Shown here: piece after piece, positions 11,197-43,661 of the stretch
How positions within the stretch are numbered: position 1 is the first letter of the stretch
Layout of the letters: each line of letters begins with the position of its first letter
Assembly: GCA_015146655.1 (NCBI GenBank)
Contig: VKHL01000010.1
Span: 1 to 64,000, forward strand
DNA: 64,000 bases
Source of the DNA: Ochromonas danica
Lineage: Eukaryota > Sar > Chrysophyceae > Chromulinales > Chromulinaceae
Reading direction: 5' to 3'
Program-made: the position numbers and the translations under genes
The notes under the pieces: model-generated
Database searches by the model: none
Seen by the model: only the letters and a program-made list of their open reading frames with translations
Told to the model about the DNA's origin: nothing

Positions 11197-11823
11197 TCAG
11201 AGGTCCTTGCGGGGAAGTGCTCCAGCTTCCTCTAAGAGTTCTCTCAGCACTCCCTCTTTATCCAAGGAGACCAAACCACCGGCTGTGGAGATCACTCGAC
11301 CAGAAGATGAATGCACCTCTTGTGGCCCATCAGAACATCCACCCAAGAAGTGTCCGCCGACCCAAATGCTGGGCACAGAGGTACGGCCTGTGCGACGCTG
11401 TAACTCCTCGCGAATCGCCACACCAACGGAACCTTCTTGATCCAGTGCCACCACTTTCACCGCAGCGCCGTATTTCTCGAGGAGAATAGATTTCGCACGC
11501 ATGCAGTAAGGACAATGAGTGAAGACATATAGAACACAGCTATTGTCATGGATGTCCCGATCTACCATCGCCTTGACTTGTTCGTCATTGACAGAAGAAG
11601 AGTCAGACTGATGGTTTTGTTTTTGCTTCCTTTGTCTTGCTGCAGCGGAGGAGGAGGTATCTTGCTGAGCCCAGACAACCATAGATCCCAACATGATGGC
11701 TTGAAATGACACGAGGAGACTTGTTGGTGTGGAAAGAGAACCAAACAAGGGCATGGGATGAACCTGCTTTGCCATCATTACGATAGCAAAGAAAACAATA
11801 GCTAGGTTAACACTAGTCATCAT
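11197..11823 (-). CDS. Membrane-anchored or secreted dithiol glutaredoxin
   Basis: An intronless gene for 208 residues. A hydrophobic N-terminus (about residues 5-20) and a second hydrophobic segment (about 36-52) suggest a signal anchor or organelle-targeting region. A polar linker leads to a glutaredoxin fold from residue 85. The active site is Cys104-Pro-Tyr-Cys107 in FTHCPYCMRAK, the dithiol form, and TSVPSIWVGGHFLGG supplies the cis-proline and glutathione-binding loop. It should reduce disulfides or glutathione mixed disulfides, probably in a secretory or plastid-related compartment. Its promoter and first 83 codons were copied about 3.4 kb away and now form the 5' end of a chimeric gene. 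The duplicate differs at a handful of bases, so this is the parent copy. Confidence 0.88.
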   Translation of the reverse strand: MMTSVNLAIVFFAIVMMAKQVHPMPLFGSLSTPTSLLVSFQAIMLGSMVVWAQQDTSSSAAARQRKQKQNHQSDSSSVNDEQVKAMVDRDIHDNSCVLYVFTHCPYCMRAKSILLEKYGAAVKVVALDQEGSVGVAIREELQRRTGRTSVPSIWVGGHFLGGCSDGPQEVHSSSGRVISTAGGLVSLDKEGVLRELLEEAGALPRKDL

Positions 11824-12131
11824 TGTTTATATCTTGCTGGGTGCTTTATGTTAGGTCGAGTAGTTTTATCAGTTCTAAATGGATCGTTGCTAGATCTGGG
11901 ATTCTGGACTGGAGATCTTTCGGTTTTCGTTTCCGCGTGATTTCGTTTCCGCTGCGTGCTGTTCCGGTATCTGCTGTTCCGTTTGGGTATCTTCAGCCAA
12001 CACCGCCTGGACGTGCAATGCAAAGGCAATACAATACATTAGTTGAGACCACAGAGCAGTCAAGGCTTGTTGTGTCTCACAAGAACGATTCAGATTTTTG
12101 ATTGTAGTGTATCAAGAAAAGAGTTCAGACC
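11824..12131. promoter_or_regulatory. Shared upstream region: glutaredoxin and helical-family gene A
   Basis: The two genes diverge across 308 bp. The part from 11824 to 12013 recurs next to the chimeric gene at 15220-15399, with substitutions and one deletion of about a dozen bases. The short stretch around 12001-12020 aligns without gaps to the two sequences flanking the transposon in unit A, so it represents the empty insertion site. Confidence 0.6.
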
Positions 12132-13196
12132 ATGTTTAAACAAATACAAAATGCTATTATTACCCAATCGTTAGATACTTTTTCTGATAATGCTATGAAA
12201 AAACTGGACAAGATGCTGGATGCATTAACCGTGGAGGACATAGCAAAAAGTGAAAGCTTCGCCTCTTTCCAAAATAGACTGCATAACTCTATCTTGACCT
12301 ATTATGATGAGCGCACCAAGGCTAAATTGGATATAGTTGCTCCACGCAACTGGGAGGAAGGTGAGACAAGTCGTTGTTCAACATATCAACATGACATTTG
12401 ATTTATCTGGTTTCTGTTTGCATCTCAGATAAAGAAGTAGTCTCAGTCCGAAAACGAATGCTTAAACGTAGATTGGAAGAAAAGGCACCAATAATCAAGT
12501 TTAGGTTTGATACCCTAATGGCGACAAGAACTGAGAAGATAAATGAAGTTCTTCGCTTGTGTCGAGAGAAGATTGAGGAGTTCTTCACCACCGTGCAGCT
12601 TCCTCTCAACCACAAAGATCTTAAAGCGAAATTCAGTTCTTTCCAAGAAATGCTTCGCCAATTTGTTAGTGACCTATATCTGCTAAGCGTTTTCGTTTGA
12701 TAATTGTATGCTGCTTTCCTTTTAACAGATCAATACCAACTATCCTGACGGATTAGCTGCTATGGATAAAGACTGCTTAATATTACTCGGTAACGATGAG
12801 TGCACGAATATCTTTAAGCAAATCGACATGCGCCAGGAAGAATTGATTAAAAAGAACGAGCGGGCAATTGAGAACTTGAAACAGAAATATGTGCAAGAGA
12901 TTATGGAACTTGTTTCCTCTGAGGTCAGTGGTTTTGTTGGATCCGTTTGATAACGATCTGACTTTAATTGTTTTATATTAATTTCTTGGTCAAAGCTGCA
13001 AGTCGCCTTGGTCAAGATTGTCGATGAGAAGGTGGCAAGTTATGATGCCAAGCTTTACTTCTTGGAGTCCTTCGAGAAGAAGCGCTTTAATGAGTATATC
13101 TGTCACGAATCTTCATTGGTTTTATCTAAGAAGAGTCAGTGTGAAGTTGCTGCTCCTTCTCCTATCTCACCTTCTGCTTTTCACTCCTCTAGTTAG
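12132..13196 (+). CDS. Helical family protein, copy A (lineage-specific, unknown role)
   Basis: I do not recognise the family. Four exons (12132-12360, 12429-12664, 12729-12923, 12996-13196) with GT-AG introns of 64-72 nt give 286 residues. The protein is almost wholly alpha-helical and charged, with likely coiled-coil stretches such as EELIKKNERAIENLKQKY, and ends in a Ser/Pro tail. There are no cysteine clusters, membrane segment, signal peptide or P-loop. Copies B and C appear identical. A distant relative at 25.7 kb keeps the same intron positions and the same lengths for exons 1 and 2 (229 and 236 nt), which supports the gene model and real coding status. The helix-rich build loosely recalls the C-terminal helical part of dynamin-like GTPases such as GBPs, but nothing proves that. 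Confidence 0.8.
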
Positions 13197-13797
13197 GCGA
13201 CTGTTAGTGTTGGACCATATTCACCACCTGCTCATATCTTTAACAGACTAGTACTTATTTTGAGTGTCAATTATTTCGAACATGATACGATAAAAATCTT
13301 ATATACTCGTTATGAGGAGATAAAGTAATTGATTTGGATATCCAATTTGTCTTTCCATTTCTGCTCTGTCAGTAGATGCGTAGAACTAGAAAACTGTTCA
13401 GTTGCACGATTACACCTTCCTCCACAGCTCTAGCGAGTACACTGGCATTTCTGTCTCCTGATTGCATCAATTGTTAATTAAATTAGACAACATAGATACT
13501 AACTCCTAACACACCTATACTAAGGTTATTCCTTAGTACATTGATATAAAGAACTAGAACTAGATATAGTAAGCTACGATTTTGATTCCACATGGAAAGG
13601 GATAGTCTTTGTTCCTACACAACATAGGCAAAGCAGTAATTCTTGCACCATCTTGATCAATCAAGGTCGTCCATTTACACACCAGATAAATTATTGCAAA
13701 CTCTTTCTCTTCTTCTTAAGCATACTAAAACATTATAACGGTATCAAACGAATAGAACAATTTCTTCTCTCTCTTTTTGAATATGTTCAGAAGATAT
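13197..13797. other. Spacer between helical gene A and the SBBP tail
   Basis: About 600 bp of AT-rich 3' flank. It recurs apparently unchanged in units B (18514-19114) and C (23508-24108), where in C it is the ordinary spacer to the intact SBBP gene. No open frame or RNA gene was seen. Confidence 0.6.
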
Positions 13798-13882
13798 TTA
13801 GTCACTGATTTTCATATAGAAGATATCTGTCCCACCACTTTTTCTTCTTTTCTCAGACAAAAAGCTCCCTGTCGTTGACCCG
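13798..13882 (-). pseudogene. Severed 3' end of the SBBP-repeat gene, unit A
   Basis: These 85 bp match the last codons and stop of the intact gene at 24109-24193, then the match ends abruptly. The rest of the gene is absent and is replaced by the 3' flank of the ISG12-like gene. This marks one breakpoint of the duplicated unit. Confidence 0.85.
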
Positions 13883-14290
13883 ACGACACCGGAACATCCC
13901 GGATCAGGGCCTGTCCCACCTTTCTGAGAGAGCGAAAGGGATCATCACCCATAATTTACAACAAAGTTTACTGTACCTTCTACCCTACATGAAGTAACTA
14001 TTGGTACTGCTAATTCAATATCTCCTGCAAGAATCAAGTGTTCTGGCAAACGACTTTTGGATTCTCGGCAACAAGATTTGGACCATTTCACCTTAAATAG
14101 GATAGAATTTTTAACTACTTGAGTTTTCCAACAACAATGACAAGAATAATATGTGATAGAAAGACCAATAAGTTACGTGACTTAAAATAATAATGTTGGA
14201 AAAGGCTAGCATTACCAGTCAGTAACAAGTCAATGAAGTAGCTTCGATGACAGAGTGTCAAGAAATGCATTAGATAGAGTTCAGTCATGC
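13883..14290. other. 3' flank of the ISG12-like gene, unit A
   Basis: From about 13896 this is, in reverse complement, the same sequence as the flank downstream of the related gene at 42525-42900, apart from an indel of a few dozen bases. The shared block includes a GC-rich stretch around ATCCCGGATCAGGGC. It is probably 3' UTR. Confidence 0.7.
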
Positions 14291-15219
14291 TTACTGTTGC
14301 TTCTTGTCAGCAGGGGCAGTAACAGCACCAATAGCCGCACCAGTTGCCGCCCCAACAACACCACCAGCAGTGGCTCCTAAGGAATAGGCAGCGCCAGTCA
14401 TAGCTGCCGACTGTGCGAGAGACATTACTGACCCCGTCGCCAAACCCGCTCCCATGTTGGCAGCAAACCACCCGCCAGCAACTGGTCCGAGAGGACCCAA
14501 TCCGACCATAATGAGTGCTCCTCCAACAACTGCAACCCCAACAGCCGCACCACCTACTGTTCCAGTGGCCGAACCAACAGCCATTCTGGCATTCGTTACA
14601 CCAATCGCATCAACTGTCATTTTAGCAGCAGACTATACAAAATGAAACATTAGAGACGTAAGAATAATATAATAAAATAATAGAATAATTGTGAGAATAT
14701 TTTCCCTACATAGACAGGATTATACCACAAGCTATTTTGCTTTGGTTGATTTTCATCTTTCTTTTCTTCCAAGAGTTGATTTTGGGCATTCATAATTGTC
14801 AGAGGCTGATTTTCATCATTCTCTTTTTCCATCATACTCATTCTCTGTTTTTCTTCCTCTTCCATGAGATGAACTTTGACATCAGAATTTTCCAAGGACA
14901 GATTTTCTACCTCCTTCTTTTCATCCGAGAAATCAAGCCACAGGGCATACCTTGTCACAGGGCATACATTGACTTGTTCGTCATTGACAGAAGAAGAGTC
15001 AGACTGATGGTTTTGTTTTTGCTTCCTTTGTCTCGCTGTAGCGGAGGAGGAGGTATCTTGCTGAGCCCAGACAACCATAGATCCCAACATGATGGCTTGA
15101 AATGACACGAGGAGACTTGTTGGTGTGGAAAGAGAACCAAACAAGGGCATGGGATGAACCTGCTTTGCCATCATTACGATAGCAAAGAAAACAATAGCTA
15201 GGTTAACACTAGTCATCAT
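14291..15219 (-). CDS. Chimera: glutaredoxin N-terminus fused in frame to ISG12-like protein
   Basis: Exon 1 (15219-14710) and exon 2 (14632-14291) keep the frame across a 77-nt GT-AG intron and give 283 residues. Residues 1-83 repeat the N-terminus of the neighbouring glutaredoxin, both hydrophobic segments included, but stop before the CPYC fold. About 15 junction residues follow, then from about residue 99 the acidic ISG12-like N-terminal region, and from exon 2 the glycine/alanine-rich hydrophobic core ending in ADKKQQ. The glutaredoxin promoter region is present upstream as far as the transposon, so the gene may be expressed under that promoter. The predicted result is a small membrane protein with a new targeting segment. 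Unit B has the ordinary version beginning MADNND. Expression is unproven. Confidence 0.75.
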
Positions 15220-15399
15220 TGTTTGGGTGCTTCATGTTAGGTCGAGTAGTTTTATCAGTTCTAAATGGATCGTTGCTAGATCTGGGATTCTGGACTGGAG
15301 ATCTTTCGGTTTTCGTTTCCGGGTGATTTCGTTTCCGCTGCATGCTGTTCCGGTATCTGCTGTTCCGTTTGGGTATCTTCAGCAAACACCTTCTGAACT
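14969..15399. repeat. Duplicated glutaredoxin 5' region
   Basis: This is a copy of 11573-12013: codons 1-83 plus the upstream flank. It differs by several substitutions and one deletion of about a dozen bases just upstream of the ATG. It is therefore older than the A/B/C array, whose units look identical. It is absent from unit B. Confidence 0.88.
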
Positions 15400-17326
15400 C
15401 CACACGCGTCATATAATCCGTTTCGTCAAAAATCCGTCACCCCTGCTTCATTTTCATTGAGGAAAGTCCCATCTTTTTCATCTTTTTCTTCACGAACTCA
15501 TAGCTCTTGCCAAAACAAATGACGTAAGTTAATAATGGTAAGTTTATTTCTTGCTTGGTGGTGATTGGGCAACTAATTGTTCGTTTTCTTTTGCGTTTGT
15601 AGGGTCTGAGCTACTCGACGGGGTCACGAGTTTCAGTGACTATTTAAAGGTCGCGCCTACAGCTGCCAATAAAAGAATGATCATGGAAGTATTCCATTAT
15701 TGTGAAAAATCAAGCAGCCAGTTCTGTGCCGACTACAAGCTTCATTGTAGCACTCTGATGTGTTGGAAAAGAAAGTACGGCAGGATGGAGGTCAGGGAAG
15801 GGGTGACTTTCATGGTAAACGAGTTGCCCATCCCAAGATTGATTTCATTGACCTCAATAATATTCACCAACAAGTAGTAGGAGCGGTCAGGATTGAGCGT
15901 TCTATGATAGAAGCTGAATTGGATGTTGCTATTGATGAGGAGGCAGCTGCAACGAAAAAATGGCGGAATATAGCTGCCACAGGGGAGAAGTTGAGTTGGG
16001 ACACTAGAATGAAATATGTAAATTTAACTAATCAAACGGTTAGGCAGGGCCAGCACAGCCCTAGTTCTAGAATTGTCACTGAGACCGATCCTCTGAAATG
16101 TATGCTATGACCATGGCTTTTCGTGAGCAACTCGCTGCATATATGATCTTGAATAGAGACGCTACTCAATACTTAGTACACAATAGTGCAGATTCGTCGA
16201 TGTACGCCGCAAACGGGGAGTTTGATGACCATATTAAATGCGAAAGGCAGGGAAAACTCGAATTTAGCTTCATAGCGTACAATTTTAACTACGCCGCCGG
16301 ATACCCAGCCCCTCCAGTCGATCCCTCGATGTCTATCGATGTCTATCAATGTCTTCAAATGGTGGAATCCTTCACTCGTCATTTTGTAAGAGCATTCTTC
16401 AAAGCAGGCTGGATGATGCTACGATAATTTCGAGGATCGAGCCCTCCGGGCGGCTTTAGAGAGCCAGTTCAACCAGCATGGTACCATTTCGAGTGATAAA
16501 AAGGTCAGTATGTGAGTGGTGTCATGAAAATTGTTTATGCGGTAACAGAGGTCCTCGCAAAAGACAAGACAAAGCTCGGTCTCCAGGAAACCGACAATGG
16601 CCGCTAAATTTTGGCATAGTAATGGGTAAATACACATGAATACAACATCACGAGCTCACTTAGACCGATATTGAACATATATGAACACAGATGCCGAAGT
16701 TGGTGGAGCTGTTTTGGTCTAATAGGCAGGTCACGGAGAAAGACATGGATGGCATAAATATTGTTGGCTGGATAAAGTCACCAAACCCAAGAAAGAGCGA
16801 GACCCTCACCAACAGCACGTAGTGCTACTGAATAAAGAAGATACTGTCGCACGGTTCAAGCTGTAAAAGACGAAGAAAGTGCAAGAGACAGCGGCCAAAG
16901 AGGGAGACGGCTGCAAAGGGAGACCACGAGGCAAACAAGAGAAGCAGTGAACCATGAAAAGCAGCTCCACCAGCAGGGTATGAGAGTCTCTTCGAGGCTG
17001 ATCAAAAGGCAGAGCGGGAGAGAAGAAAACCTGTCCTGCCGGACCAGCAATTTGCCATGAGTGCAAACACAATTGCTCCCAGACAAAAAGTTTCTCAGTT
17101 TTGCTTCCCTTGTGTAGCTTTTTAGACTTAAATGATCACCACACTCATCATTTCCACAAAAGGAGAGACATAATACAGCAATCTCGATGGCTGGAATTGG
17201 ACTTCGACCTCACACTTCAAAGAATTCAGCCACGGAAGTGGGCATATGCCCAATGGAAAGCAAAGTCGCAAAAAACCCGTTGGGGTGACGGATTTTTTGA
17301 CGAAACGGATTATATGACGCGTGTGG
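15400..17326 (+). mobile_element. DNA transposon with terminal inverted repeats, copy A
   Basis: A 1927-bp element. The left end (15400-15443, starting CCACACGCGTCATATAATCC) is repeated inverted at the right end (17282-17326), with near-perfect arms of about 44 bp. AACT flanks both sides (15396-15399 and 17327-17330) as a 4-bp target duplication. The site without the element survives in diverged form at 12001-12020. Inside lie broken transposase frames on the plus strand and about 850 bp of sequence with no long frame. The family is uncertain. The peptide resembles the transposase fragment at 39.3 kb. The element looks non-autonomous. Confidence 0.88.
15604..16427 (+). pseudogene. Degenerate transposase inside element A
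   Basis: Three overlapping frames read like one protein broken by frameshifts. The first, to 15877, looks like a helix-turn-helix region (SFSDYLKV to MCWKRKYG). The second frame contains FHGKR..P.ID followed by a helical block. The third holds LNRDATQYLV, which could be the first catalytic Asp of a DDE transposase. The order and spacing match the fragment at 39.3 kb (KDWVKKY, FHVKRGRP.AID), which supports common family membership. No further catalytic residues were identified. Confidence 0.6.
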
Positions 17327-17448
17327 AACTTGCAATGCAAAGGCAATACAATACATTAGTTGAGACCACAGAGCAGTCAAGGCTTGTTGTGTCTCACAAG
17401 AACGATTCAGATTTTTGATTGTAGTGTATCAAGAAAAGAGTTCAGACC

Positions 17449-18513
17449 ATGTTTAAACAAATACAAAATGCTATTATTACCCAATCGTTAGATACTTTTT
17501 CTGATAATGCTATGAAAAAACTGGACAAGATGCTGGATGCATTAACCGTGGAGGACATAGCAAAAAGTGAAAGCTTCGCCTCTTTCCAAAATAGACTGCA
17601 TAACTCTATCTTGACCTATTATGATGAGCGCACCAAGGCTAAATTGGATATAGTTGCTCCACGCAACTGGGAGGAAGGTGAGACAAGTCGTTGTTCAACA
17701 TATCAACATGACATTTGATTTATCTGGTTTCTGTTTGCATCTCAGATAAAGAAGTAGTCTCAGTCCGAAAACGAATGCTTAAACGTAGATTGGAAGAAAA
17801 GGCACCAATAATCAAGTTTAGGTTTGATACCCTAATGGCGACAAGAACTGAGAAGATAAATGAAGTTCTTCGCTTGTGTCGAGAGAAGATTGAGGAGTTC
17901 TTCACCACCGTGCAGCTTCCTCTCAACCACAAAGATCTTAAAGCGAAATTCAGTTCTTTCCAAGAAATGCTTCGCCAATTTGTTAGTGACCTATATCTGC
18001 TAAGCGTTTTCGTTTGATAATTGTATGCTGCTTTCCTTTTAACAGATCAATACCAACTATCCTGACGGATTAGCTGCTATGGATAAAGACTGCTTAATAT
18101 TACTCGGTAACGATGAGTGCACGAATATCTTTAAGCAAATCGACATGCGCCAGGAAGAATTGATTAAAAAGAACGAGCGGGCAATTGAGAACTTGAAACA
18201 GAAATATGTGCAAGAGATTATGGAACTTGTTTCCTCTGAGGTCAGTGGTTTTGTTGGATCCGTTTGATAACGATCTGACTTTAATTGTTTTATATTAATT
18301 TCTTGGTCAAAGCTGCAAGTCGCCTTGGTCAAGATTGTCGATGAGAAGGTGGCAAGTTATGATGCCAAGCTTTACTTCTTGGAGTCCTTCGAGAAGAAGC
18401 GCTTTAATGAGTATATCTGTCACGAATCTTCATTGGTTTTATCTAAGAAGAGTCAGTGTGAAGTTGCTGCTCCTTCTCCTATCTCACCTTCTGCTTTTCA
18501 CTCCTCTAGTTAG
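17449..18513 (+). CDS. Helical family protein, copy B
   Basis: Exons 17449-17677, 17746-17981, 18046-18240 and 18313-18513 encode 286 residues that read the same as copy A at every residue. The upstream flank differs: here the promoter side is the right end of the transposon, only about 120 bp before the ATG, so its expression may depend on the element. Function unknown. Confidence 0.8.
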
Positions 18514-19114
18514 GCGACTGTTAGTGTTGGACCATATTCACCACCTGCTCATATCTTTAACAGACTAGTACTTATTTTGAGTGTCAATTATTTCGAACAT
18601 GATACGATAAAAATCTTATATACTCGTTATGAGGAGATAAAGTAATTGATTTGGATATCCAATTTGTCTTTCCATTTCTGCTCTGTCAGTAGATGCGTAG
18701 AACTAGAAAACTGTTCAGTTGCACGATTACACCTTCCTCCACAGCTCTAGCGAGTACACTGGCATTTCTGTCTCCTGATTGCATCAATTGTTAATTAAAT
18801 TAGACAACATAGATACTAACTCCTAACACACCTATACTAAGGTTATTCCTTAGTACATTGATATAAAGAACTAGAACTAGATATAGTAAGCTACGATTTT
18901 GATTCCACATGGAAAGGGATAGTCTTTGTTCCTACACAACATAGGCAAAGCAGTAATTCTTGCACCATCTTGATCAATCAAGGTCGTCCATTTACACACC
19001 AGATAAATTATTGCAAACTCTTTCTCTTCTTCTTAAGCATACTAAAACATTATAACGGTATCAAACGAATAGAACAATTTCTTCTCTCTCTTTTTGAATA
19101 TGTTCAGAAGATAT

Positions 19115-19199
19115 TTAGTCACTGATTTTCATATAGAAGATATCTGTCCCACCACTTTTTCTTCTTTTCTCAGACAAAAAGCTCCCTGTCGTTGACCCG
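19115..19199 (-). pseudogene. Severed 3' end of the SBBP-repeat gene, unit B
   Basis: It has the same 85-bp tail and the same breakpoint as in unit A, showing that A and B descend from one rearranged ancestor. Confidence 0.85.
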
Positions 19200-19607
19200 A
19201 CGACACCGGAACATCCCGGATCAGGGCCTGTCCCACCTTTCTGAGAGAGCGAAAGGGATCATCACCCATAATTTACAACAAAGTTTACTGTACCTTCTAC
19301 CCTACATGAAGTAACTATTGGTACTGCTAATTCAATATCTCCTGCAAGAATCAAGTGTTCTGGCAAACGACTTTTGGATTCTCGGCAACAAGATTTGGAC
19401 CATTTCACCTTAAATAGGATAGAATTTTTAACTACTTGAGTTTTCCAACAACAATGACAAGAATAATATGTGATAGAAAGACCAATAAGTTACGTGACTT
19501 AAAATAATAATGTTGGAAAAGGCTAGCATTACCAGTCAGTAACAAGTCAATGAAGTAGCTTCGATGACAGAGTGTCAAGAAATGCATTAGATAGAGTTCA
19601 GTCATGC
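19200..19607. other. 3' flank of the ISG12-like gene, unit B
   Basis: It corresponds to 13883-14290 in unit A and appears unchanged. It is likely 3' UTR, with nothing else visible. Confidence 0.6.
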
Positions 19608-20293
19608 TTACTGTTGCTTCTTGTCAGCAGGGGCAGTAACAGCACCAATAGCCGCACCAGTTGCCGCCCCAACAACACCACCAGCAGTGGCTCCTAAGGA
19701 ATAGGCAGCGCCAGTCATAGCTGCCGACTGTGCGAGAGACATTACTGACCCCGTCGCCAAACCCGCTCCCATGTTGGCAGCAAACCACCCGCCAGCAACT
19801 GGTCCGAGAGGACCCAATCCGACCATAATGAGTGCTCCTCCAACAACTGCAACCCCAACAGCCGCACCACCTACTGTTCCAGTGGCCGAACCAACAGCCA
19901 TTCTGGCATTCGTTACACCAATCGCATCAACTGTCATTTTAGCAGCAGACTATACAAAATGAAACATTAGAGACGTAAGAATAATATAATAAAATAATAG
20001 AATAATTGTGAGAATATTTTCCCTACATAGACAGGATTATACCACAAGCTATTTTGCTTTGGTTGATTTTCATCTTTCTTTTCTTCCAAGAGTTGATTTT
20101 GGGCATTCATAATTGTCAGAGGCTGATTTTCATCATTCTCTTTTTCCATCATACTCATTCTCTGTTTTTCTTCCTCTTCCATGAGATGAACTTTGACATC
20201 AGAATTTTCCAAGGACAGATTTTCTACCTCCTTCTTTTCATCCAGGAAATCAAACAGCTGGTCAAATATTTCACAATCATTATTATCCGCCAT
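19608..20293 (-). CDS. ISG12-like (IFI6/IFI27 family) small hydrophobic protein, unit B
   Basis: Exon 1 (20293-20027) and exon 2 (19949-19608), split by a 77-nt intron, give 202 residues. The N-terminal 89 residues are acidic and Gln/Asn/Glu-rich. Exon 2 encodes a Gly/Ala-rich hydrophobic core with GLGPLGPVAGGWFAANMGAG and SVMSLAQSAAM, the pattern of the interferon-induced 6-16 family (compare G..AGS.AA.MMS.AA and LQS.GAAG in the animal proteins). Animal members are small membrane proteins of mitochondria, ER or nuclear envelope that affect apoptosis and immunity; the role in protists is unknown. The 5' flank resembles that of the gene at 41.8 kb, so this is the unfused form of the chimera in unit A. 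Confidence 0.75.
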
Positions 20294-20393
20294 TTGTTCA
20301 CAAATAAGACAGTAATACCCAGTAGTCTATCAATAATGACAGAGCCTGGAGAGCGGACGCAATAGTTTCTCCCACAGAGACTGGGCCAGAACT

Positions 20394-22320
20394 CCACACG
20401 CGTCATATAATCCGTTTCGTCAAAAATCCGTCACCCCTGCTTCATTTTCATTGAGGAAAGTCCCATCTTTTTCATCTTTTTCTTCACGAACTCATAGCTC
20501 TTGCCAAAACAAATGACGTAAGTTAATAATGGTAAGTTTATTTCTTGCTTGGTGGTGATTGGGCAACTAATTGTTCGTTTTCTTTTGCGTTTGTAGGGTC
20601 TGAGCTACTCGACGGGGTCACGAGTTTCAGTGACTATTTAAAGGTCGCGCCTACAGCTGCCAATAAAAGAATGATCATGGAAGTATTCCATTATTGTGAA
20701 AAATCAAGCAGCCAGTTCTGTGCCGACTACAAGCTTCATTGTAGCACTCTGATGTGTTGGAAAAGAAAGTACGGCAGGATGGAGGTCAGGGAAGGGGTGA
20801 CTTTCATGGTAAACGAGTTGCCCATCCCAAGATTGATTTCATTGACCTCAATAATATTCACCAACAAGTAGTAGGAGCGGTCAGGATTGAGCGTTCTATG
20901 ATAGAAGCTGAATTGGATGTTGCTATTGATGAGGAGGCAGCTGCAACGAAAAAATGGCGGAATATAGCTGCCACAGGGGAGAAGTTGAGTTGGGACACTA
21001 GAATGAAATATGTAAATTTAACTAATCAAACGGTTAGGCAGGGCCAGCACAGCCCTAGTTCTAGAATTGTCACTGAGACCGATCCTCTGAAATGTATGCT
21101 ATGACCATGGCTTTTCGTGAGCAACTCGCTGCATATATGATCTTGAATAGAGACGCTACTCAATACTTAGTACACAATAGTGCAGATTCGTCGATGTACG
21201 CCGCAAACGGGGAGTTTGATGACCATATTAAATGCGAAAGGCAGGGAAAACTCGAATTTAGCTTCATAGCGTACAATTTTAACTACGCCGCCGGATACCC
21301 AGCCCCTCCAGTCGATCCCTCGATGTCTATCGATGTCTATCAATGTCTTCAAATGGTGGAATCCTTCACTCGTCATTTTGTAAGAGCATTCTTCAAAGCA
21401 GGCTGGATGATGCTACGATAATTTCGAGGATCGAGCCCTCCGGGCGGCTTTAGAGAGCCAGTTCAACCAGCATGGTACCATTTCGAGTGATAAAAAGGTC
21501 AGTATGTGAGTGGTGTCATGAAAATTGTTTATGCGGTAACAGAGGTCCTCGCAAAAGACAAGACAAAGCTCGGTCTCCAGGAAACCGACAATGGCCGCTA
21601 AATTTTGGCATAGTAATGGGTAAATACACATGAATACAACATCACGAGCTCACTTAGACCGATATTGAACATATATGAACACAGATGCCGAAGTTGGTGG
21701 AGCTGTTTTGGTCTAATAGGCAGGTCACGGAGAAAGACATGGATGGCATAAATATTGTTGGCTGGATAAAGTCACCAAACCCAAGAAAGAGCGAGACCCT
21801 CACCAACAGCACGTAGTGCTACTGAATAAAGAAGATACTGTCGCACGGTTCAAGCTGTAAAAGACGAAGAAAGTGCAAGAGACAGCGGCCAAAGAGGGAG
21901 ACGGCTGCAAAGGGAGACCACGAGGCAAACAAGAGAAGCAGTGAACCATGAAAAGCAGCTCCACCAGCAGGGTATGAGAGTCTCTTCGAGGCTGATCAAA
22001 AGGCAGAGCGGGAGAGAAGAAAACCTGTCCTGCCGGACCAGCAATTTGCCATGAGTGCAAACACAATTGCTCCCAGACAAAAAGTTTCTCAGTTTTGCTT
22101 CCCTTGTGTAGCTTTTTAGACTTAAATGATCACCACACTCATCATTTCCACAAAAGGAGAGACATAATACAGCAATCTCGATGGCTGGAATTGGACTTCG
22201 ACCTCACACTTCAAAGAATTCAGCCACGGAAGTGGGCATATGCCCAATGGAAAGCAAAGTCGCAAAAAACCCGTTGGGGTGACGGATTTTTTGACGAAAC
22301 GGATTATATGACGCGTGTGG
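20394..22320 (+). mobile_element. DNA transposon with terminal inverted repeats, copy B
   Basis: It has the same length (1927 bp), ends and interior as copy A, and AACT on both sides (20390-20393, 22321-22324). The left flank is ISG12-like promoter sequence rather than glutaredoxin promoter. The element thus sits at the junction where the two units differ, which suggests recombination at the element. Confidence 0.88.
20598..21421 (+). pseudogene. Degenerate transposase inside element B
   Basis: It has the same three broken frames as in copy A, with helix-turn-helix, FHGKR and LNRDATQY segments. The sharing of identical breaks shows it was already dead when the array was duplicated. Confidence 0.6.
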
Positions 22321-22324
22321 AACT

Positions 22325-24193
22325 TGCAATGCAAAGGCAATACAATACATTAGTTGAGACCACAGAGCAGTCAAGGCTTGTTGTGTCTCACAAGAACGAT
22401 TCAGATTTTTGATTGTAGTGTATCAAGAAAAGAGTTCAGACCATGTTTAAACAAATACAAAATGCTATTATTACCCAATCGTTAGATACTTTTTCTGATA
22501 ATGCTATGAAAAAACTGGACAAGATGCTGGATGCATTAACCGTGGAGGACATAGCAAAAAGTGAAAGCTTCGCCTCTTTCCAAAATAGACTGCATAACTC
22601 TATCTTGACCTATTATGATGAGCGCACCAAGGCTAAATTGGATATAGTTGCTCCACGCAACTGGGAGGAAGGTGAGACAAGTCGTTGTTCAACATATCAA
22701 CATGACATTTGATTTATCTGGTTTCTGTTTGCATCTCAGATAAAGAAGTAGTCTCAGTCCGAAAACGAATGCTTAAACGTAGATTGGAAGAAAAGGCACC
22801 AATAATCAAGTTTAGGTTTGATACCCTAATGGCGACAAGAACTGAGAAGATAAATGAAGTTCTTCGCTTGTGTCGAGAGAAGATTGAGGAGTTCTTCACC
22901 ACCGTGCAGCTTCCTCTCAACCACAAAGATCTTAAAGCGAAATTCAGTTCTTTCCAAGAAATGCTTCGCCAATTTGTTAGTGACCTATATCTGCTAAGCG
23001 TTTTCGTTTGATAATTGTATGCTGCTTTCCTTTTAACAGATCAATACCAACTATCCTGACGGATTAGCTGCTATGGATAAAGACTGCTTAATATTACTCG
23101 GTAACGATGAGTGCACGAATATCTTTAAGCAAATCGACATGCGCCAGGAAGAATTGATTAAAAAGAACGAGCGGGCAATTGAGAACTTGAAACAGAAATA
23201 TGTGCAAGAGATTATGGAACTTGTTTCCTCTGAGGTCAGTGGTTTTGTTGGATCCGTTTGATAACGATCTGACTTTAATTGTTTTATATTAATTTCTTGG
23301 TCAAAGCTGCAAGTCGCCTTGGTCAAGATTGTCGATGAGAAGGTGGCAAGTTATGATGCCAAGCTTTACTTCTTGGAGTCCTTCGAGAAGAAGCGCTTTA
23401 ATGAGTATATCTGTCACGAATCTTCATTGGTTTTATCTAAGAAGAGTCAGTGTGAAGTTGCTGCTCCTTCTCCTATCTCACCTTCTGCTTTTCACTCCTC
23501 TAGTTAGGCGACTGTTAGTGTTGGACCATATTCACCACCTGCTCATATCTTTAACAGACTAGTACTTATTTTGAGTGTCAATTATTTCGAACATGATACG
23601 ATAAAAATCTTATATACTCGTTATGAGGAGATAAAGTAATTGATTTGGATATCCAATTTGTCTTTCCATTTCTGCTCTGTCAGTAGATGCGTAGAACTAG
23701 AAAACTGTTCAGTTGCACGATTACACCTTCCTCCACAGCTCTAGCGAGTACACTGGCATTTCTGTCTCCTGATTGCATCAATTGTTAATTAAATTAGACA
23801 ACATAGATACTAACTCCTAACACACCTATACTAAGGTTATTCCTTAGTACATTGATATAAAGAACTAGAACTAGATATAGTAAGCTACGATTTTGATTCC
23901 ACATGGAAAGGGATAGTCTTTGTTCCTACACAACATAGGCAAAGCAGTAATTCTTGCACCATCTTGATCAATCAAGGTCGTCCATTTACACACCAGATAA
24001 ATTATTGCAAACTCTTTCTCTTCTTCTTAAGCATACTAAAACATTATAACGGTATCAAACGAATAGAACAATTTCTTCTCTCTCTTTTTGAATATGTTCA
24101 GAAGATATTTAGTCACTGATTTTCATATAGAAGATATCTGTCCCACCACTTTTTCTTCTTTTCTCAGACAAAAAGCTCCCTGTCGTTGACCCG
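22325..24193. repeat. Tandem array unit C (partial)
   Basis: It carries the helical gene and its 3' spacer and continues without a break into the intact SBBP gene. C is therefore the ancestral arrangement; units A and B joined this block to an ISG12-like locus at the cut near 24193. Confidence 0.88.
22443..23507 (+). CDS. Helical family protein, copy C
   Basis: Exons 22443-22671, 22740-22975, 23040-23234 and 23307-23507 give 286 residues, identical to copies A and B. Its left flank is again the transposon end. It lies tail to tail with the complete SBBP gene, probably the original setting of this gene. Function unknown. Confidence 0.8.
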
Positions 24194-25491
24194 GTAATAT
24201 AGATGTTATCCTCATCGTCAATTGTCAAAGCTCGACCATAATCTTCTCCTCCACTACTATATGAAGTGGAATAAATCAACTCACCCTGCACATCATACTT
24301 TCGCAGCACAATATCACTGTGGCTAATAGTGAAAGAAGATTCAACCTTTCCTTTATAGACATAACCCAGAAAATAAAGGCAATGCTGACTATTCATCGCA
24401 ATCCCCACAGCATTGCTCACTTCTTTCGGATCAAAATGTTTATACCAGACTTCCTTACCATTCTTATCATACTTCATTAATAATGCAACGCTATGCTCCA
24501 AATCTCCCCACACTGATCCAGAGATATAGACATCACCATAGGAAGGATCGACTAAAATACCCAAGCCATTGTCAAAACCCGTCGATCCATATAACTTGGT
24601 GAAAATCGCTGTGCCATCATTACTCCTCACTTTCAATAAGAACAAGTCACTATTGCCTTGATTCTGTTCTCCATGAAGATCACCATAGGTATACCCTGTC
24701 ATGAAGATGTCTTGACTCAAAGGATCCACCGCCACACTCTTACCCTCATCATCCTCGGCAGTGCCATACTGCTTCGTCCAAATCTTCTTACCCATCCAGT
24801 CATATTTCAGGAGGAAGATGTCTTGCTTCCCGTAAGTCACCTGTTCGTTCAAACTTCCTTCCGTCACACCCGTGACATAGACATGACCCAGAGAGTCCAT
24901 GGCCAGAGACTCGCCTTGGTCAAAGCTCGCGGTACCACTCAGTCTGCTGAACAACCTTGACCCATCTTCCTTGCACTTGACCAAAAAAATGTCTGAGTCT
25001 CCATGTGGTCTCAGTGACGAGGAGGAGTGAAAAGAGCCAGTCATGTAGATCGAACCATCTGATTGGTTCATCAGCATGTCCAAGAGGTTCCCTTTGTGAG
25101 AAGTTAACCGATCAACCGCCGGCATCATTGCGAACATTCTCACACTAGTATTAGAAGCCTCGGGGATGGGAGGCGACAGGAGGAGGAGACGCATTGAGGT
25201 AAATTTATCGTCGTGGGATTGAGGCAGCAGAACATCCTGCTGGTAAGATTCTTTTTCTTTCTCGTCCTTCTTCTTGAAGCGAAGAGGACCACCCAGTTCA
25301 CCTGCCAATGTCACCACCACAGAGGAGGAAAAAGCAGAAGAGGAGGGGGAAGACTTTCTCACAGCAATGGCTTGAGCGAAATCACCACCTTTACTGCCAA
25401 ATTGTGCTGTATACAAGACTTTTTGTGACTTCACGTTAGGCAGGAGAAGGGAAAGAACCAGGAGAGGGAGGAGGAGCGAGAACTGCATCAT
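24109..25491 (-). CDS. Secreted SBBP beta-propeller repeat protein
   Basis: An intronless gene for 460 residues. Residues 1-22 form a signal peptide (hydrophobic Leu-rich core ending VKSQ). From about residue 130 onward there are five to six repeats of about 50-60 residues with the pattern DIFLLKYD..G..W.K.YG....D.G..VAVD....+Y+TG, the SBBP signature of a beta-propeller. No catalytic domain is visible, so an extracellular or luminal binding role is likely but unproven. Two ATGs open the frame; the first was used. SBBP repeats are commonest in bacteria, so this intronless gene could be an old transfer. The last 85 bp are shared with the array units. Members of the helical family lie on both sides of it. 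Confidence 0.82.
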   Translation of the reverse strand: MMQFSLLLPLLVLSLLLPNVKSQKVLYTAQFGSKGGDFAQAIAVRKSSPSSSAFSSSVVVTLAGELGGPLRFKKKDEKEKESYQQDVLLPQSHDDKFTSMRLLLLSPPIPEASNTSVRMFAMMPAVDRLTSHKGNLLDMLMNQSDGSIYMTGSFHSSSSLRPHGDSDIFLVKCKEDGSRLFSRLSGTASFDQGESLAMDSLGHVYVTGVTEGSLNEQVTYGKQDIFLLKYDWMGKKIWTKQYGTAEDDEGKSVAVDPLSQDIFMTGYTYGDLHGEQNQGNSDLFLLKVRSNDGTAIFTKLYGSTGFDNGLGILVDPSYGDVYISGSVWGDLEHSVALLMKYDKNGKEVWYKHFDPKEVSNAVGIAMNSQHCLYFLGYVYKGKVESSFTISHSDIVLRKYDVQGELIYSTSYSSGGEDYGRALTIDDEDNIYITGSTTGSFLSEKRRKSGGTDIFYMKISD

Positions 25492-25718
25492 ATATCTTGT
25501 TCAACGCCGTCGATATTCAACACGAACGAGACGAAAAAGGTCACGGCGTACGCGTTTCTGACTTGAAAAATGGTTGATAAACTAGTTTATAGTCACGCAA
25601 CTTGTGCACAGCAAAAGGGGAGTGCACCGGAAAACCTGGGGAAGACGCGCAAATTGTGTTGGCATCACTCACCTCTCTTGTCGTGGTCTTCTTCTCTCTG
25701 TCTGACCTGTCCTATCCA

Positions 25719-26823
25719 ATGATCAAATTTTTCAAAGATCCTATTGAGAAGATCTCTTGTAAGGTATTTCATGATAATGCTGTGAAAAAGTTTGATGCGA
25801 GACTTTCGACTCTCTCCATCCAAGACTTGGACTGTGTGGAGAATGTGGAAGACTTCAAACTCAAGCTCTTCCAAGAAATGTTAACTTACTATGATAAGCG
25901 AGTAAAAGTAAAGCTTGAAACTACTGTTCCTTCCGATTGGATGAAAGGTATTTTTATCTTGAAGTTAAATAGCACCCATTAATTCACGAGTTTGCATATT
26001 GTATCAATAATACCAGACAAAGGCATTATTTCTAAATTCAAACGAGCTCTGCTGAAGGATTTGGAGAGCAAGATATTGCTGATTGAAGCTAAGTACAAGT
26101 TTTTGTTGGCCAAGCGACAAAGAAGTCTGAAAAGTGTCATGCGTGGAGCAGAAGAGATGATCGAGCAGTTCTTTCTATCGGTACAATTCCCTATGAACCC
26201 TGGTGTATTGAAAGATCGTATCTTCTCTCTTGAAGCTGAGCTGCGTAAATTTGTTAGTGCTCCTTCTGACGTCTTTGTCGGTCGCCACTTGTTAGACTGA
26301 CATGGTTTCTTGCATTAGATTGACAATGCCTATCCAACTGGGATCAGAGGATTGGATAGGGACTCTCACTTGATTGATCTATGTTCTCCTGAGTGTACTG
26401 ACTTGTTCAAGCAAGTGCGAATGCAAGCGGAAGTATTGACAGAGAAAAATGAGAGGGCGATAGAGAAAGGTCGAAGGGAAGTCGTTACTGTCGTAAAGAA
26501 TGATGTTGCTGCCAGGGTAAGCCTTGTCATAGCTCTATATCTTATTCAGTGTTATCTATTTAATTTATTGACATTAGCTTGCCAGTATTGTGGAGCTCAT
26601 GGTGGATGAAAAGCTGAATGAGTTAAGCCCCCAATTGTATTACCTGGAATCATACGAAAAGAAGCGTGTTCGAGAGGAGATTTTGACTTGCACCTCAGAG
26701 ATATTGTTGGTGAGACCAAGTCTGTCAACACTGCCTCCCTCCTCTCAGATTCCTTATTCAACTGAAGGCTCTCCAGAGGTAACAGAGACAGTCTTAAGGT
26801 TGGGCATGACTTCCTCCCCCTGA
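25719..26823 (+). CDS. Helical family protein, diverged copy D
   Basis: Four exons (25719-25947, 26017-26252, 26319-26516, 26578-26823) give 302 residues. About a third of residues in exon 1 match copies A-C (for example LTYYD+R.K.KL). Exon lengths 229, 236 and 198 nt against 229, 236 and 195, and identical intron phases, show common descent. Conserved features are DNA.KK.D near residue 20, a Lys/Arg-rich helix in exon 2, FKQ...+.E.L..KNERAIE in exon 3, and VDEK....L+YLES+EKKR in exon 4. It ends in a Ser/Thr/Pro-rich tail. ATG 25719 was chosen because the upstream extension starts with TTG and aligns to nothing. Selection has evidently kept the frame, so the family is functional. Role unknown. 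Confidence 0.8.
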
Positions 26824-37802: not shown

Positions 37803-39004
37803 ATGGAACAAGGCTGGGGATTGGGTCATGATCTTGATATCCTTCCATATGAGGATGCTATTAAGGAAGGAGAGCGTAGAATTATTCTAACTGGTCCGCG
37901 CAGGTGGGTGGATGTGTTTAGTTTCACCTTTCTTCTTCTCTTCTTGTGGGTCAACTCTAATGCTGTTTGGTCTTCCTCACACCTCACTCTTGCAGGTCTG
38001 GTAAAACAAGTATTGAACGTGTTATCTTCCGCAAGCTCTCACCACATGAAACTCTTTTTCTTGACTCGACTCATGGAGTGGAGATTCGTCTTGTGGATAA
38101 CAATGACTTCTTACGCTTCCAAACTTGGGATTTCGGTGGAGAATTAAACTTTTCACAAGGGGTTGAGTATTCAGGCCATACCTTGTCTATTGACACCATG
38201 CTTAAAGGCTGCAGCACGATGGTCTATGTCATCGATGCACAAGAAAATGACTTTGAAGACTGCCTGCCCAAGCTGGCTGAGACTATAATAGCTGCATACA
38301 AGATAAACCCTGCCATTCATTTTGAAGTCTTTCTTCATAAAGTGGATGGTGATGTTATGCCCGAGGAGAGCAAGGCGGAAAGACAGCATACCATTCAGAA
38401 CTTCATTTCCTCTGAATTATCTGAATTGCATGGGGAGATCCTCGTGAACTATCATCTCACTTCAGTCTTCGATCATAGTGCATTGGAAGCCTTTAGCAAA
38501 GTTGTACAGAAGTTAGTTTATCAGTTGCCTGTGTTAAACAAGTTGATGGACAAGCTTATTGAGAGGTAAGCAGTGATTGAGCCGTGCTGTTGTCTGTGAA
38601 TAGTTGGTGATTTGGTGCTCATGTCTAGTTGTATCATCGACAAGTCCTACCTTCTCGACGTCTTTACTAAGCTCTACATCGCTACGGACTCCAATCCCGT
38701 GGATGGACACGTCTTTGAGCTTTGTGCTGATTTAGTGGATGTTGTGGTGGACTTCTCATGTATCTATGGTCTCTCAGAAGAAGATGGAGCTGCCATTCCT
38801 TATGACCAACAAAGCTCTTCCGCTATTCGACTGAACGGGGGCATGGTACTTTATTTGAGAGAAGTGAGCAAGTACTTGGCCCTTGTTTGTGTCATACGTG
38901 AGGAATACTTCGCAAGAAAGGCATTGCTGGACTTCAACATTAATTGCTTTCGAAAGAGCGTGGATCTTATCTCACAGGAGAGTCCTTCCAACGGCTCTGG
39001 CTGA
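37803..39004 (+). CDS. RagC/D-type (Gtr2) GTPase
   Basis: Three exons (37803-37903, 37996-38565, 38629-39004) encode 348 residues. Rag GTPases act as heterodimers on the lysosome or vacuole to signal amino-acid supply to TORC1. The P-loop GPRRSGKTS spans the first intron. SPHETLFLDST, FQTWDFGG, VYVIDAQ and FEVFLHKVDGD follow, with HKVD as guanine-specificity motif, as in RagC/D rather than RagA/B. The C-terminal roadblock-like half begins after YHLTSVFDHSALEAFSKVVQ and contains IATDSNPVDGH. The length is near that of human RagC/D and yeast Gtr2. All splice junctions are GT-AG and in phase. Confidence 0.92.
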
Positions 39005-39261: not shown

Positions 39262-39798
39262 TTAAGTTAAAGATAGATCTGTTCCGCTCTTCGTCTGCTG
39301 TGGTATGAGTCCCTTCTCGTCTAATGAGTCACTGATCTCGTCTAAGTAGCGAGTAACAGTCTTTGAGGACAATTTTGTAGCTGGAGCTGCGGTATTGCGT
39401 CGTCTTTTGATTTCTTCGGCTTTCTCCCATACTACCCGTCGAACGTCTCTTTTTCCGAGTGTCTTTTGCTGTTCGCTAGCCTCAACTAAAGTTTGTACGA
39501 TAGAATTGATTCCTTCTTGATCTATAGCTCGAGGACGACCTCTCTTGACATGAAAGGTGTTGACTTTCGTCAATAACATTTGGCGATACTTTTTGACCCA
39601 GTCTTTGAGTGTGGAAACAGCAATGCTGTGGGCACTTCCATACTCCCCATATGTTTTTCCGCTTTCCAAAAAGTGTTTTGCAACTGCTATTTTGCCTTCA
39701 ACAGAATTGCCGAAGCTTTTGAGGGGTGCAAAACGAGTGCCTGGAATTTCCACTTCCCCCACATCTAATATGATGCAAAAAGACATTTTTAGTTTCAT
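39262..39798 (-). pseudogene. Transposase N-terminal fragment (helix-turn-helix)
   Basis: The frame gives 178 residues with a helix-turn-helix block (GKIAVAKHFLESG to VSTLKDWVKKYRQ), then FHVKRGRPRAID and a second helical region ending KTVTRYLDE. It has no DDE catalytic part and no inverted repeats that I can find, so it is a remnant of a DNA transposon. The arrangement parallels the broken transposase in the 15.4- and 20.4-kb elements, probably the same superfamily but a different, better-preserved lineage. A domesticated DNA-binding protein is the alternative, because the frame is open over its entire length. Confidence 0.6.
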
Positions 39799-41395: not shown

Positions 41396-41844
41396 ATGAA
41401 TTTTGTCAGTAAATTTTGTATAGGTATGTATTTAGCCTACTATTGTGAGTAATAAAATCATTGGAATTGTTGTCTATTTTGCATTGGATTCTACGTAGGT
41501 GATGAAAACAGAGACATTCTAGTTTTCTACTGTATATGCGAGTTGTTTCAAGAGATTTGAACGAGATAATGATTTGACTCTCTTGAATAGAACACAACGA
41601 GTTGGAGAAGAGATGAGGCCAAGCAGCCTAACTCTCATTAGATTCGATACTTTCATCCCGACTAGAGCAACAGAACAATGTGTGGTGATCATCGACTTCC
41701 TTCTCTCTCTCAAAGAAAGCACCCGGATCCGGGACTTTTGTTCTGGTCTGGTCTCTGTGTGGGAGAAACTATTGCGTCCGCTCTGCTCTGTCATATTCTT
41801 ATTATTGATAGACTACTGGGTATTACTGTCTTATTTGTGAACAA
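41396..41844. other. Upstream region of ISG12-like gene 1
   Basis: The last 110 bp or so, up to the ATG, match in reverse complement the upstream flank of the unit-B gene (about 20294-20393), and the match ends close to the transposon edge in B. The remainder shows nothing recognisable. Confidence 0.6.
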
Positions 41845-42524
41845 ATGGCGGATAATAATGATAGTGGAATGTGTTACGTGCTGTTTGAATACCCGGATGA
41901 AAAGAAGGAGGTAGAAAATCTGCCCTTGGAAAATTCTGATGTCAACGTTCATCTCATGGAAGAGGAAGAAAAACAGAGAATGATGGAAAAAGAGAACGAT
42001 GAAAATCAGCCTCTGACAATTATGAATGCCCAAAATCAACTCTTGGAAGAAAAGAAAGATGAAAATCAACCAAAGCAAAATAGCCTGTGGTATAATCCTG
42101 TCTATGTAGGGAAAATATTCTCACAATTATTCTATTATTTTATTGTATTATTCTTACGTCTCTAATGTTTCATTGTGTATAGTCTGTTGCTAAAATGACA
42201 GTTGATGCGATTGGTGAAACGAATGCCAGAATGGCTGTTGGTTCGGCTACTGGAATAGCAACTGGCGCGTACTTGGGAACTGCAGTTGTTGGAGGAGCAC
42301 TCTTTATGATCGGATTGGGTCCTCTCGGACCAGTTGCTGGCGGGTGGTTTGCTGCCAACATGGGAGCGGGTTTGGCGACGGGGTCAGTAATGTCTCTCGC
42401 ACAGTCGGCAGCTATGACTGGCGCTGCCTATTCCTTAGGAGCCACTGCTGGTGGTGTTGTTGGGGCGGCAACTGGTGCGGCTATTGGTGCTGTTACTGCC
42501 CCTGCTGACAAGAAGCAACAGTAA
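41845..42524 (+). CDS. ISG12-like (IFI6/IFI27 family) protein 1
   Basis: Two exons (41845-42105, 42183-42524; 77-nt intron) give 200 residues. The acidic N-terminal region (EEEEKQRMMEKENDENQ) is followed by the Gly/Ala-rich membrane core with GLGPLGPVAGGWFAANMGAG and the tail ADKKQQ. The protein is closely related to the array copies, with differences concentrated in the first residues and around positions 110-125 (IATGAYLGTAVVGG), while the rest of the core is identical. This patchy similarity suggests gene conversion. Small multi-pass or hairpin membrane proteins of this family act at mitochondria or ER in animals; the role here is unknown. Confidence 0.75.
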
Positions 42525-43153: not shown

Positions 43154-43661
43154 ATGTTGTTTGTTGCGAGAACATCAACTTTGCTCATGAAGGAAGAGAA
43201 AGAGAATAAAGACAATCAGACCGAAGAAGAACAAGAGCATGATGAAAATCAGCCTTTACAAGAAGAGGATGGAAATGATCAAAATAACTTATTACCAGAG
43301 GGAGTTCTTAACGTAAGAAACAATTTTCTTCCTTTACAATTGTTTTCATTATTGTATAACTCTATTGTTCTCACATCTATTATGTATCATTGTATTTTAG
43401 GTTGTAAGTAGAGGCGCAGTTGGTGCGGCTGTTGGGGTTGCAGTTGTTGGAGGAGCATTCTTTATGATCGGATTGGGTCCTCTCGGACCAGTTGCTGGCG
43501 GGTGGTTTGCTGCCAACATGGGAGCGGGTTTGACAGCGGGGTCAGTAATGTCTCTCGCACAGTCAGCAGCTATGACTGGCGCTGGTTATGTCTACGGAGC
43601 CACTGCTGGTGGTGTTGTTGGGGCGGCAACTGGTGCTTTCGTTCGCGAGAAAAAGCAATAA
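43154..43661 (+). CDS. ISG12-like (IFI6/IFI27 family) protein 2
   Basis: Exon 1 (43154-43312) and exon 2 (43401-43661), with an 88-nt intron, give 139 residues. The N-terminal half is short and acidic with DENQPLQEED, recalling DENQPL in the other members. The core from VAVVGGAFFMIGLGPLGPV to GATAGGVVGAATGA is nearly identical at DNA level to the other copies over about 190 bp. Exon 1 has little similarity, and the ending is REKKQ in place of ADKKQQ. Met 43187 is a possible later start. It belongs to the same family with the same exon layout. Confidence 0.7.

Follow-up and report, generated by a model that had tools for sequence, protein, structure and literature searches.

A glutaredoxin/ISG12-like chimeric reading frame at a probable breakpoint of a transposon-associated tandem duplication in Ochromonas danica

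The chimeric open reading frame (ORF) found at positions 14291–15219 (minus strand) of the window, that is, the whole stretch of 64,000 nucleotides that was analyzed, is one junction within a three-copy array (12011–24193) of a segment P, which also contains a captured segment Q and two copies of a transposon, Y. In our best explanation, to which we give a probability of about 0.55, this ORF would mark the place where a tandem duplication, recent and associated with a transposon, was end-joined to a partial copy of a glutaredoxin gene (g′), the frame having stayed open by luck. The locus would exemplify a known route to chimeric genes, as a new instance that carries a real risk of misassembly.

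The ORF is made of exon 1 (15219–14710), an intron (14709–14633) and exon 2 (14632–14291), and its translation along the minus strand from 15219 to 14291 gives 283 residues with no internal stop. Reading from its start, 83 glutaredoxin codons are followed by a 32-bp filler and by the ISG12-like gene with its 77-nt GT–AG intron. Residues 1–83 are those of the parent glutaredoxin except for a change of Ala61 to Thr, and beyond the join region the chimera has the same protein sequence as an unfused sister gene. The 5′ part of one gene and the 3′ part of another thus lie on the same strand with both parents close by, and the homology of each part is far above chance (E-value of 6.4e-124 for the glutaredoxin part and 0 for the sister part). 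Most of what the initial annotation had read from the letters holds: the in-frame join of codons 1–83 with its coordinates and product length, the carried-over intron (14633–14709) with intact splice sites, the hydrophobic segments at the N-terminus (1–21 and 34–52 by hydropathy), and the presence in the window of the parent (11197–11823) and of the sister (19608–20293). The loss of the glutaredoxin domain is likewise confirmed, because the Pfam match (PF00462) begins at residue 97 of the parent and the chimera keeps residues 1–83 only; a Pfam scan of the exon-1 ORF of the chimera gave no match to PF00462, the CPYC domain.

The parent gene, G (11197–11823, minus strand; its segment spans 11197–12012 in the self-comparison map), encodes a protein of 208 residues with CPYC and a PF00462 match at residues 97–159 (E-value 1.1e-13), in which hydropathy places the same two hydrophobic segments, 1–21 and 34–52. 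It presumably resembles the membrane-anchored glutaredoxins of the yeast Grx6/Grx7 type, a likeness that we regard as putative. Judged by eye, both N-terminal hydrophobic stretches are also kept in a database relative (P0013). A search of the organism's own genome (an assembly of 31.19 Mb in 337 contigs) returned g′ as the sole other match to G. The copy g′ (14969–15398, minus strand) comprises codons 1–83 and 179 bp upstream, and matches G at 95.7% over 440 alignment columns, the 430 aligned bases showing 9 substitutions and a single 10-bp deletion. Four of the nine substitutions fall within the last 15 bp beside the first transposon copy, Y1 (P = 1e-4), and without this edge 5 substitutions in 415 bases are left. 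Of the 9 substitutions, 2 fall in the 251 bp of the coding part and 7 in the 179 bp that lie upstream (Fisher P = 0.04), 4 of the upstream changes belonging to the edge cluster, and this contrast may lean slightly toward constraint. The upstream stretch ends after 179 bp at Y1 and bears the 10-bp deletion, and the promoter that the initial annotation held to have been copied is for this reason best called putative. The targeting role that it gave to the glutaredoxin segment is putative as well. By eye, the succession g′, Y1, P2 is base-for-base colinear with G, P1 when Y and one AC are left out, which argues that g′ earlier adjoined P; the G–P order is present twice in the same register, as G–P1 and as g′–(Y1)–P2.

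Self-comparison gave the order G – P1 – Q1′ – filler – g′ – Y1 – P2 – Q2 – Y2 – P3 – beta-propeller gene for the array. The three plus-strand copies of segment P (P1, 12011–13882; P2, 17328–19199; P3, 22322–24193) carry a divergent gene that by eye looks coiled-coil-like, together with the tail of a beta-propeller-repeat gene. Q1′ (13883–14936, minus strand) is a truncated copy of the ISG12-like gene, which supplies the coding sequence of the chimera beyond the join, and Q2 (19200–20392 by self-comparison) holds the sister gene. Both copies of Y, an element of 1929 bp with terminal inverted repeats of ∼45 bp, are on the plus strand (Y1, 15399–17327; Y2, 20393–22321) and therefore in direct orientation. 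The left terminus of Y2 adjoins Q2 at a shared 4-bp GAAC, the junction falling exactly at the end of the element, so that a duplication breakpoint lies at an element terminus between direct Y copies.

P1 is identical to P2 and P3 except at position 12013, and Q1′ to Q2 except at 14927–14928; the 3 differences between P1–Q1′ and P2–Q2 over 2926 positions all lie at most 10 bp from a segment edge. The stretches 15395–19199 (Y1–P2) and 20389–24193 (Y2–P3) are identical over 3805 bp. P3 looks native and is continuous with the beta-propeller gene (24112–25491, minus strand). Two copies on another contig (C77; 84–85%) each align in one gapped alignment across 23931–25493, through the P3 end at 24193, and the C77 homology in the first copy (X1) ends at 13881, which makes P3 the likely native right flank and the P/Q junction derived. 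Both outer native flanks of the duplication were found, G at the left end, P3 and the beta-propeller gene at the right.

Several observations concern the surroundings of the array. The intron-bearing gene of segment P, coiled-coil-like by eye, occurs in three identical copies (12132–13196, 17449–18513, and 22443–23507); in its first copy the gene is divergent from the glutaredoxin, and a relative that by eye looks distant is located at 25602–26300. Relatives of the beta-propeller-repeat (SBBP) gene 24112–25491 form a tandem array on C77 (69000–78900; L033), in which one pair of units is 98.9% alike over 1948 bp. An ORF at 39262–39798 has a weak match, below the cut-off, to a transposase-type helix-turn-helix (PF01527, E-value 5e-4). 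The contig starts with TG repeats and a stretch of ∼64 nearly all-G bases (positions 14–108), possibly a poor contig end. The GC content of the window is 38–46% in 2-kb bins, on which ground Poteriospumella lacustris, with a GC of ∼53% (PMC6738136), was rejected as the source. An Rfam scan of the window at gathering score gave 0 matches.

The Y family counts at least 54 matches in the same genome, including Y1, Y2, fragments, and inverted ends; many of the genome copies are degraded, Y1 and Y2 being identical 1929-bp elements. None of the three Y ORFs scanned has a Pfam match or a recognizable transposase. No target-site duplication beyond an AC was found to flank Y1 or Y2, and none of 15 other loci retains both ends intact from which to read the length of the target site. 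Contig C30 starts inside a Y copy (C30:1–77; L046), identical to Y over these first 77 bp, from which we conclude that Y breaks the assembly.

The unfused sister (19608–20293, minus strand), inside Q2, encodes 202 residues, and the database protein P0001, which comes from a EukProt set, is identical to it over all 202. An inverted paralog at 41845–42524 (plus strand; 95% identity) keeps an intact 200-residue ORF and a 77-nt intron in the same place, and likely belongs to the family that gave Q; by eye, an Ochromonas danica database protein (P0002) is nearly identical to it. A further ISG12-like copy at 43154–43658 carries an in-frame TAG relative to another protein of this species, P0003, which matches two pieces of it at 98% and 97%, one piece containing the TAG. 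The initial annotation called the family ISG12-like. A Gly-rich hydrophobic domain of ∼80 residues, evident from hydropathy and alignment, is in keeping with this, the likeness to ISG12/Ifi-6-16 (PF06140) being that of a small Gly/Ala-rich hydrophobic C-terminal domain. The difference is that neither the sister nor its exon 2 has a Pfam match to PF06140, which at E ≤ 1 was seen in 6 of 24 relatives scanned, always below threshold (best E-value 0.011; in the two relatives with listed scores, 14.5 and 11.7 bits where the cut-off is 29.1), so that no sequence among the sister, its exon 2, and the 24 relatives reaches the gathering score. We therefore keep the name as a subthreshold lead. The sister's relatives share a core around GLGPxGPVAGGWFAANMGAG, and an AlphaFold model of the sister built on the 24-sequence alignment is too weak to judge (mean pLDDT 58).

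The divergence data bear directly on how many events made the array. Outside the 3 edge positions, P and Q show no change in ∼2.9 kb; at the 1.2% of g′ (5 in 415), the Poisson probability of zero changes in that length is 7e-16. Divergence is thus unequal along the duplicated unit (9 changes in the 430 bases of g′, none in P or Q off the edges), and one copying event cannot give both unless the copies were homogenized later. A single event that copied G in cis along with P and Q, with no later homogenization, was rejected on these grounds, and they leave unsupported the idea that the stages in the birth of the chimera could be traced to a copying of the neighboring gene, g′ being too diverged compared with the near-identical P and Q unless these were homogenized afterward. 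The contrast between g′ and P–Q could reflect a second allele joined in cis, later homogenization by gene conversion, or misassembly. Strain 933-7 of Chlorochromonas danica, a name that we regard as referring to O. danica, is tetraploid according to a published study (PMC7954800), which makes a second allele plausible. The assembly published for that strain has 44 Mb and 45.4% GC, compared with 31 Mb here and the 38–46% of the 2-kb bins. An allele by itself leaves the identity of P and Q unaccounted for.

The 32-bp filler at the join (14937–14968, minus strand) contains the 12-mer CACAGGGCATAC twice; the pattern CACAGGGCATACNTTG has two matches in the 31.19-Mb assembly, both in the filler, and the two changed bases of Q1′ sit within 10 bp of it. 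Searches for its source found nothing longer than 7 bp up to 300 bp from the glutaredoxin breakpoint and no match reaching 7 bp near the Q2 breakpoint or in 41700–42000; Y1 gave 9 bp, and the whole window 11 bp, at 38177. A templated origin was rejected, since the longest matches are of 7–11 bp only and a 9-bp match also arises in 7 of 200 shuffles of one 600-bp region. Fillers made of short repeats are a typical trace of error-prone end joining or template switching.

The events could be ordered as follows. Ancestrally, the order was probably G – P – beta-propeller gene, and a captured ISG12-like gene (Q) and transposon Y would have multiplied along with P. The ISG12-like gene would then have broken within its exon 1 and been joined to codon 83 of a glutaredoxin copy, probably another allele with Y between the glutaredoxin and P, and error-prone end joining or template switching at the break may have left the 32-bp filler. 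The allelic origin proposed here would account for the divergence of g′, P and Q being outside its reach: different alleles should give differences in P and Q too, so that homogenization or polishing of the assembly must be added, and this counts against our explanation. The duplication steps also allow other orders. That the frame is open is most likely luck, and the chimera is probably of recent origin and not under selection.

The strongest competitor, unlikely though deserving to be taken seriously, is an assembly artifact in which two haplotypes, or two contig ends broken at a repeat, were laid in tandem, so that the join exists in no molecule. It fits the identity of P1, P2, and P3 and of Y1 and Y2, with differences confined to segment edges, the allelic look of the g′/G divergence, the tendency of Y to break the assembly exemplified by C30, and the fact that near-identical G or P that would represent the other haplotype is missing from other contigs. 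Heterotype and homotype false duplications of this kind are described (PMC8081667). The join itself argues the other way: the window has no run of N, no overlap shared by the two sides is visible by eye, and the filler, with nothing longer than 7 bp in common with the neighborhood of the breakpoints, is what an assembler joining by overlap would not be expected to make, although one could arise from a chimeric read or a poor contig end. Haplotigs also went unseen for the two chunks tested: a 2.5-kb dynein chunk has no near-identical copy on other contigs (a single 55-bp piece at 82% on C3), and G–P is represented elsewhere by 69–89% pieces of the P tail on C77 only. A haplotig comparison with contigs C100 and C213 turned up pieces of repeat families, 25 to 2467 bp long and 85–100% alike. 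A new long-read assembly of O. danica SAG 933-7 has been published (PMC12220804).

We consider improbable, more so than an artifact, a rearrangement driven by transposase itself, in which the ends of neighboring direct Y copies would have engaged in alternative (reversed-ends) transposition followed by re-replication, by analogy with Ac/fAc of maize. The two direct Y copies and the Q2/Y2 junction at the exact terminus, with its shared GAAC, would suit such a process, whose products in maize include duplications and composite insertions with internal joins showing 4-bp, 3-bp, or no microhomology (PMC4270019). Yet Q is absent after P3, hence the array is not a simple tandem direct duplication, only the AC is shared where a target-site duplication would be sought, the chimeric join lies ∼430 bp from Y, and the three Y ORFs scanned are devoid of a Pfam transposase.

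Less probable still is that the chimera works as a new gene, which the glutaredoxin promoter would drive and which selection would maintain for a membrane-anchored ISG12-like product. The open frame and intact splice sites are in its favor, but an open in-frame join arose by chance in 21% of 20,000 simulated joins and is thus weak evidence for a gene; unlike the homology of the parts, frame preservation is not beyond chance. The low count of changes in coding g′ (2 in 251 bp) also favors function, as does the architecture of the relatives: judged by a simple rule on hydropathy, 16 of 24 database relatives (a set that includes P0001, identical to the sister) have a hydrophobic segment placed well before the Gly-rich core, and the sister has none, so that the architecture of the chimera would be common in its family. 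With the sister as query the count is 6 of 11 relatives, and among those that the chimera as query added it is 10 of 13, a figure that the N-terminus and length of the chimera itself may have biased. Against function, the leader has a 10-bp deletion and two out-of-frame upstream ATGs, at −16 (15233–15235) and −124 (15341–15343, both minus strand), which are absent from the parent; the parent has 0 ATGs in its 189 bp up to P1 versus 2 in the chimera's 179 bp. Each ATG sits at one g′ substitution (probability 0.04 that at least 2 of 7 would do so by chance), an ATG-free stretch of such composition is not unusual (10% of shuffles), and the effect of these ATGs, placed on genomic sequence alone, hinges on the transcript start. 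Moreover, Y1 cuts the upstream region off, and none of 21 matching database proteins spans both halves (largest query coverage, 71%) in a search that scored only the 7996 candidates sharing most words. Between sister and paralog, dN is 0.057 and dS 0.049, by which no constraint is seen in the pair. We retain the re-anchored membrane protein as a reasonable minority reading. The boldest version appears very improbable: that two alleles of one locus in a polyploid alga were end-joined in cis next to a transposon, that the ISG12-like protein was thereby equipped with the N-terminal anchor common among its relatives and lacking in its sister, and that a new gene thus arose in one step.

The locus also shows why an intact chimeric frame is no proof of a gene: about one-fifth of random joins are open, and the leader here has upstream ATGs that are new compared with the parent. 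If made, the product would be a membrane-anchored ISG12-like protein, which the N-terminus of the glutaredoxin would direct into the secretory path. A real join would make the locus a compact example, and a very young one, of how chimeras form in a lineage for which genomes are few. The parent, sister, paralog, transposon, and both outer flanks lie within 11.2–42.5 kb of one contig, so that each junction can be tested by PCR.

Three described systems offer comparisons. A heterotype false duplication (PMC8081667) similarly sets two slightly different copies of a locus in tandem; here, in contrast, there is no gap, the join has a filler, and most of the length is identical rather than allelic-looking. 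With maize Ac/fAc (PMC4270019), the array shares element copies beside segmental duplications, a breakpoint at an element terminus, and short microhomology, but no target-site duplication beyond an AC was seen, its unit is incomplete on the right, its chimeric join is away from the element, and the three Y ORFs scanned match no Pfam family. In Drosophila yakuba, tandem duplications form chimeric genes (Rogers, Shao and Thornton 2017, PMC5460883); the O. danica array differs in embedding a third gene (Q) and a transposon, in the filler at its join, and in being known from sequence alone, and resembles that system in that a tandem duplication would create a chimeric structure and shuffle regulatory elements.
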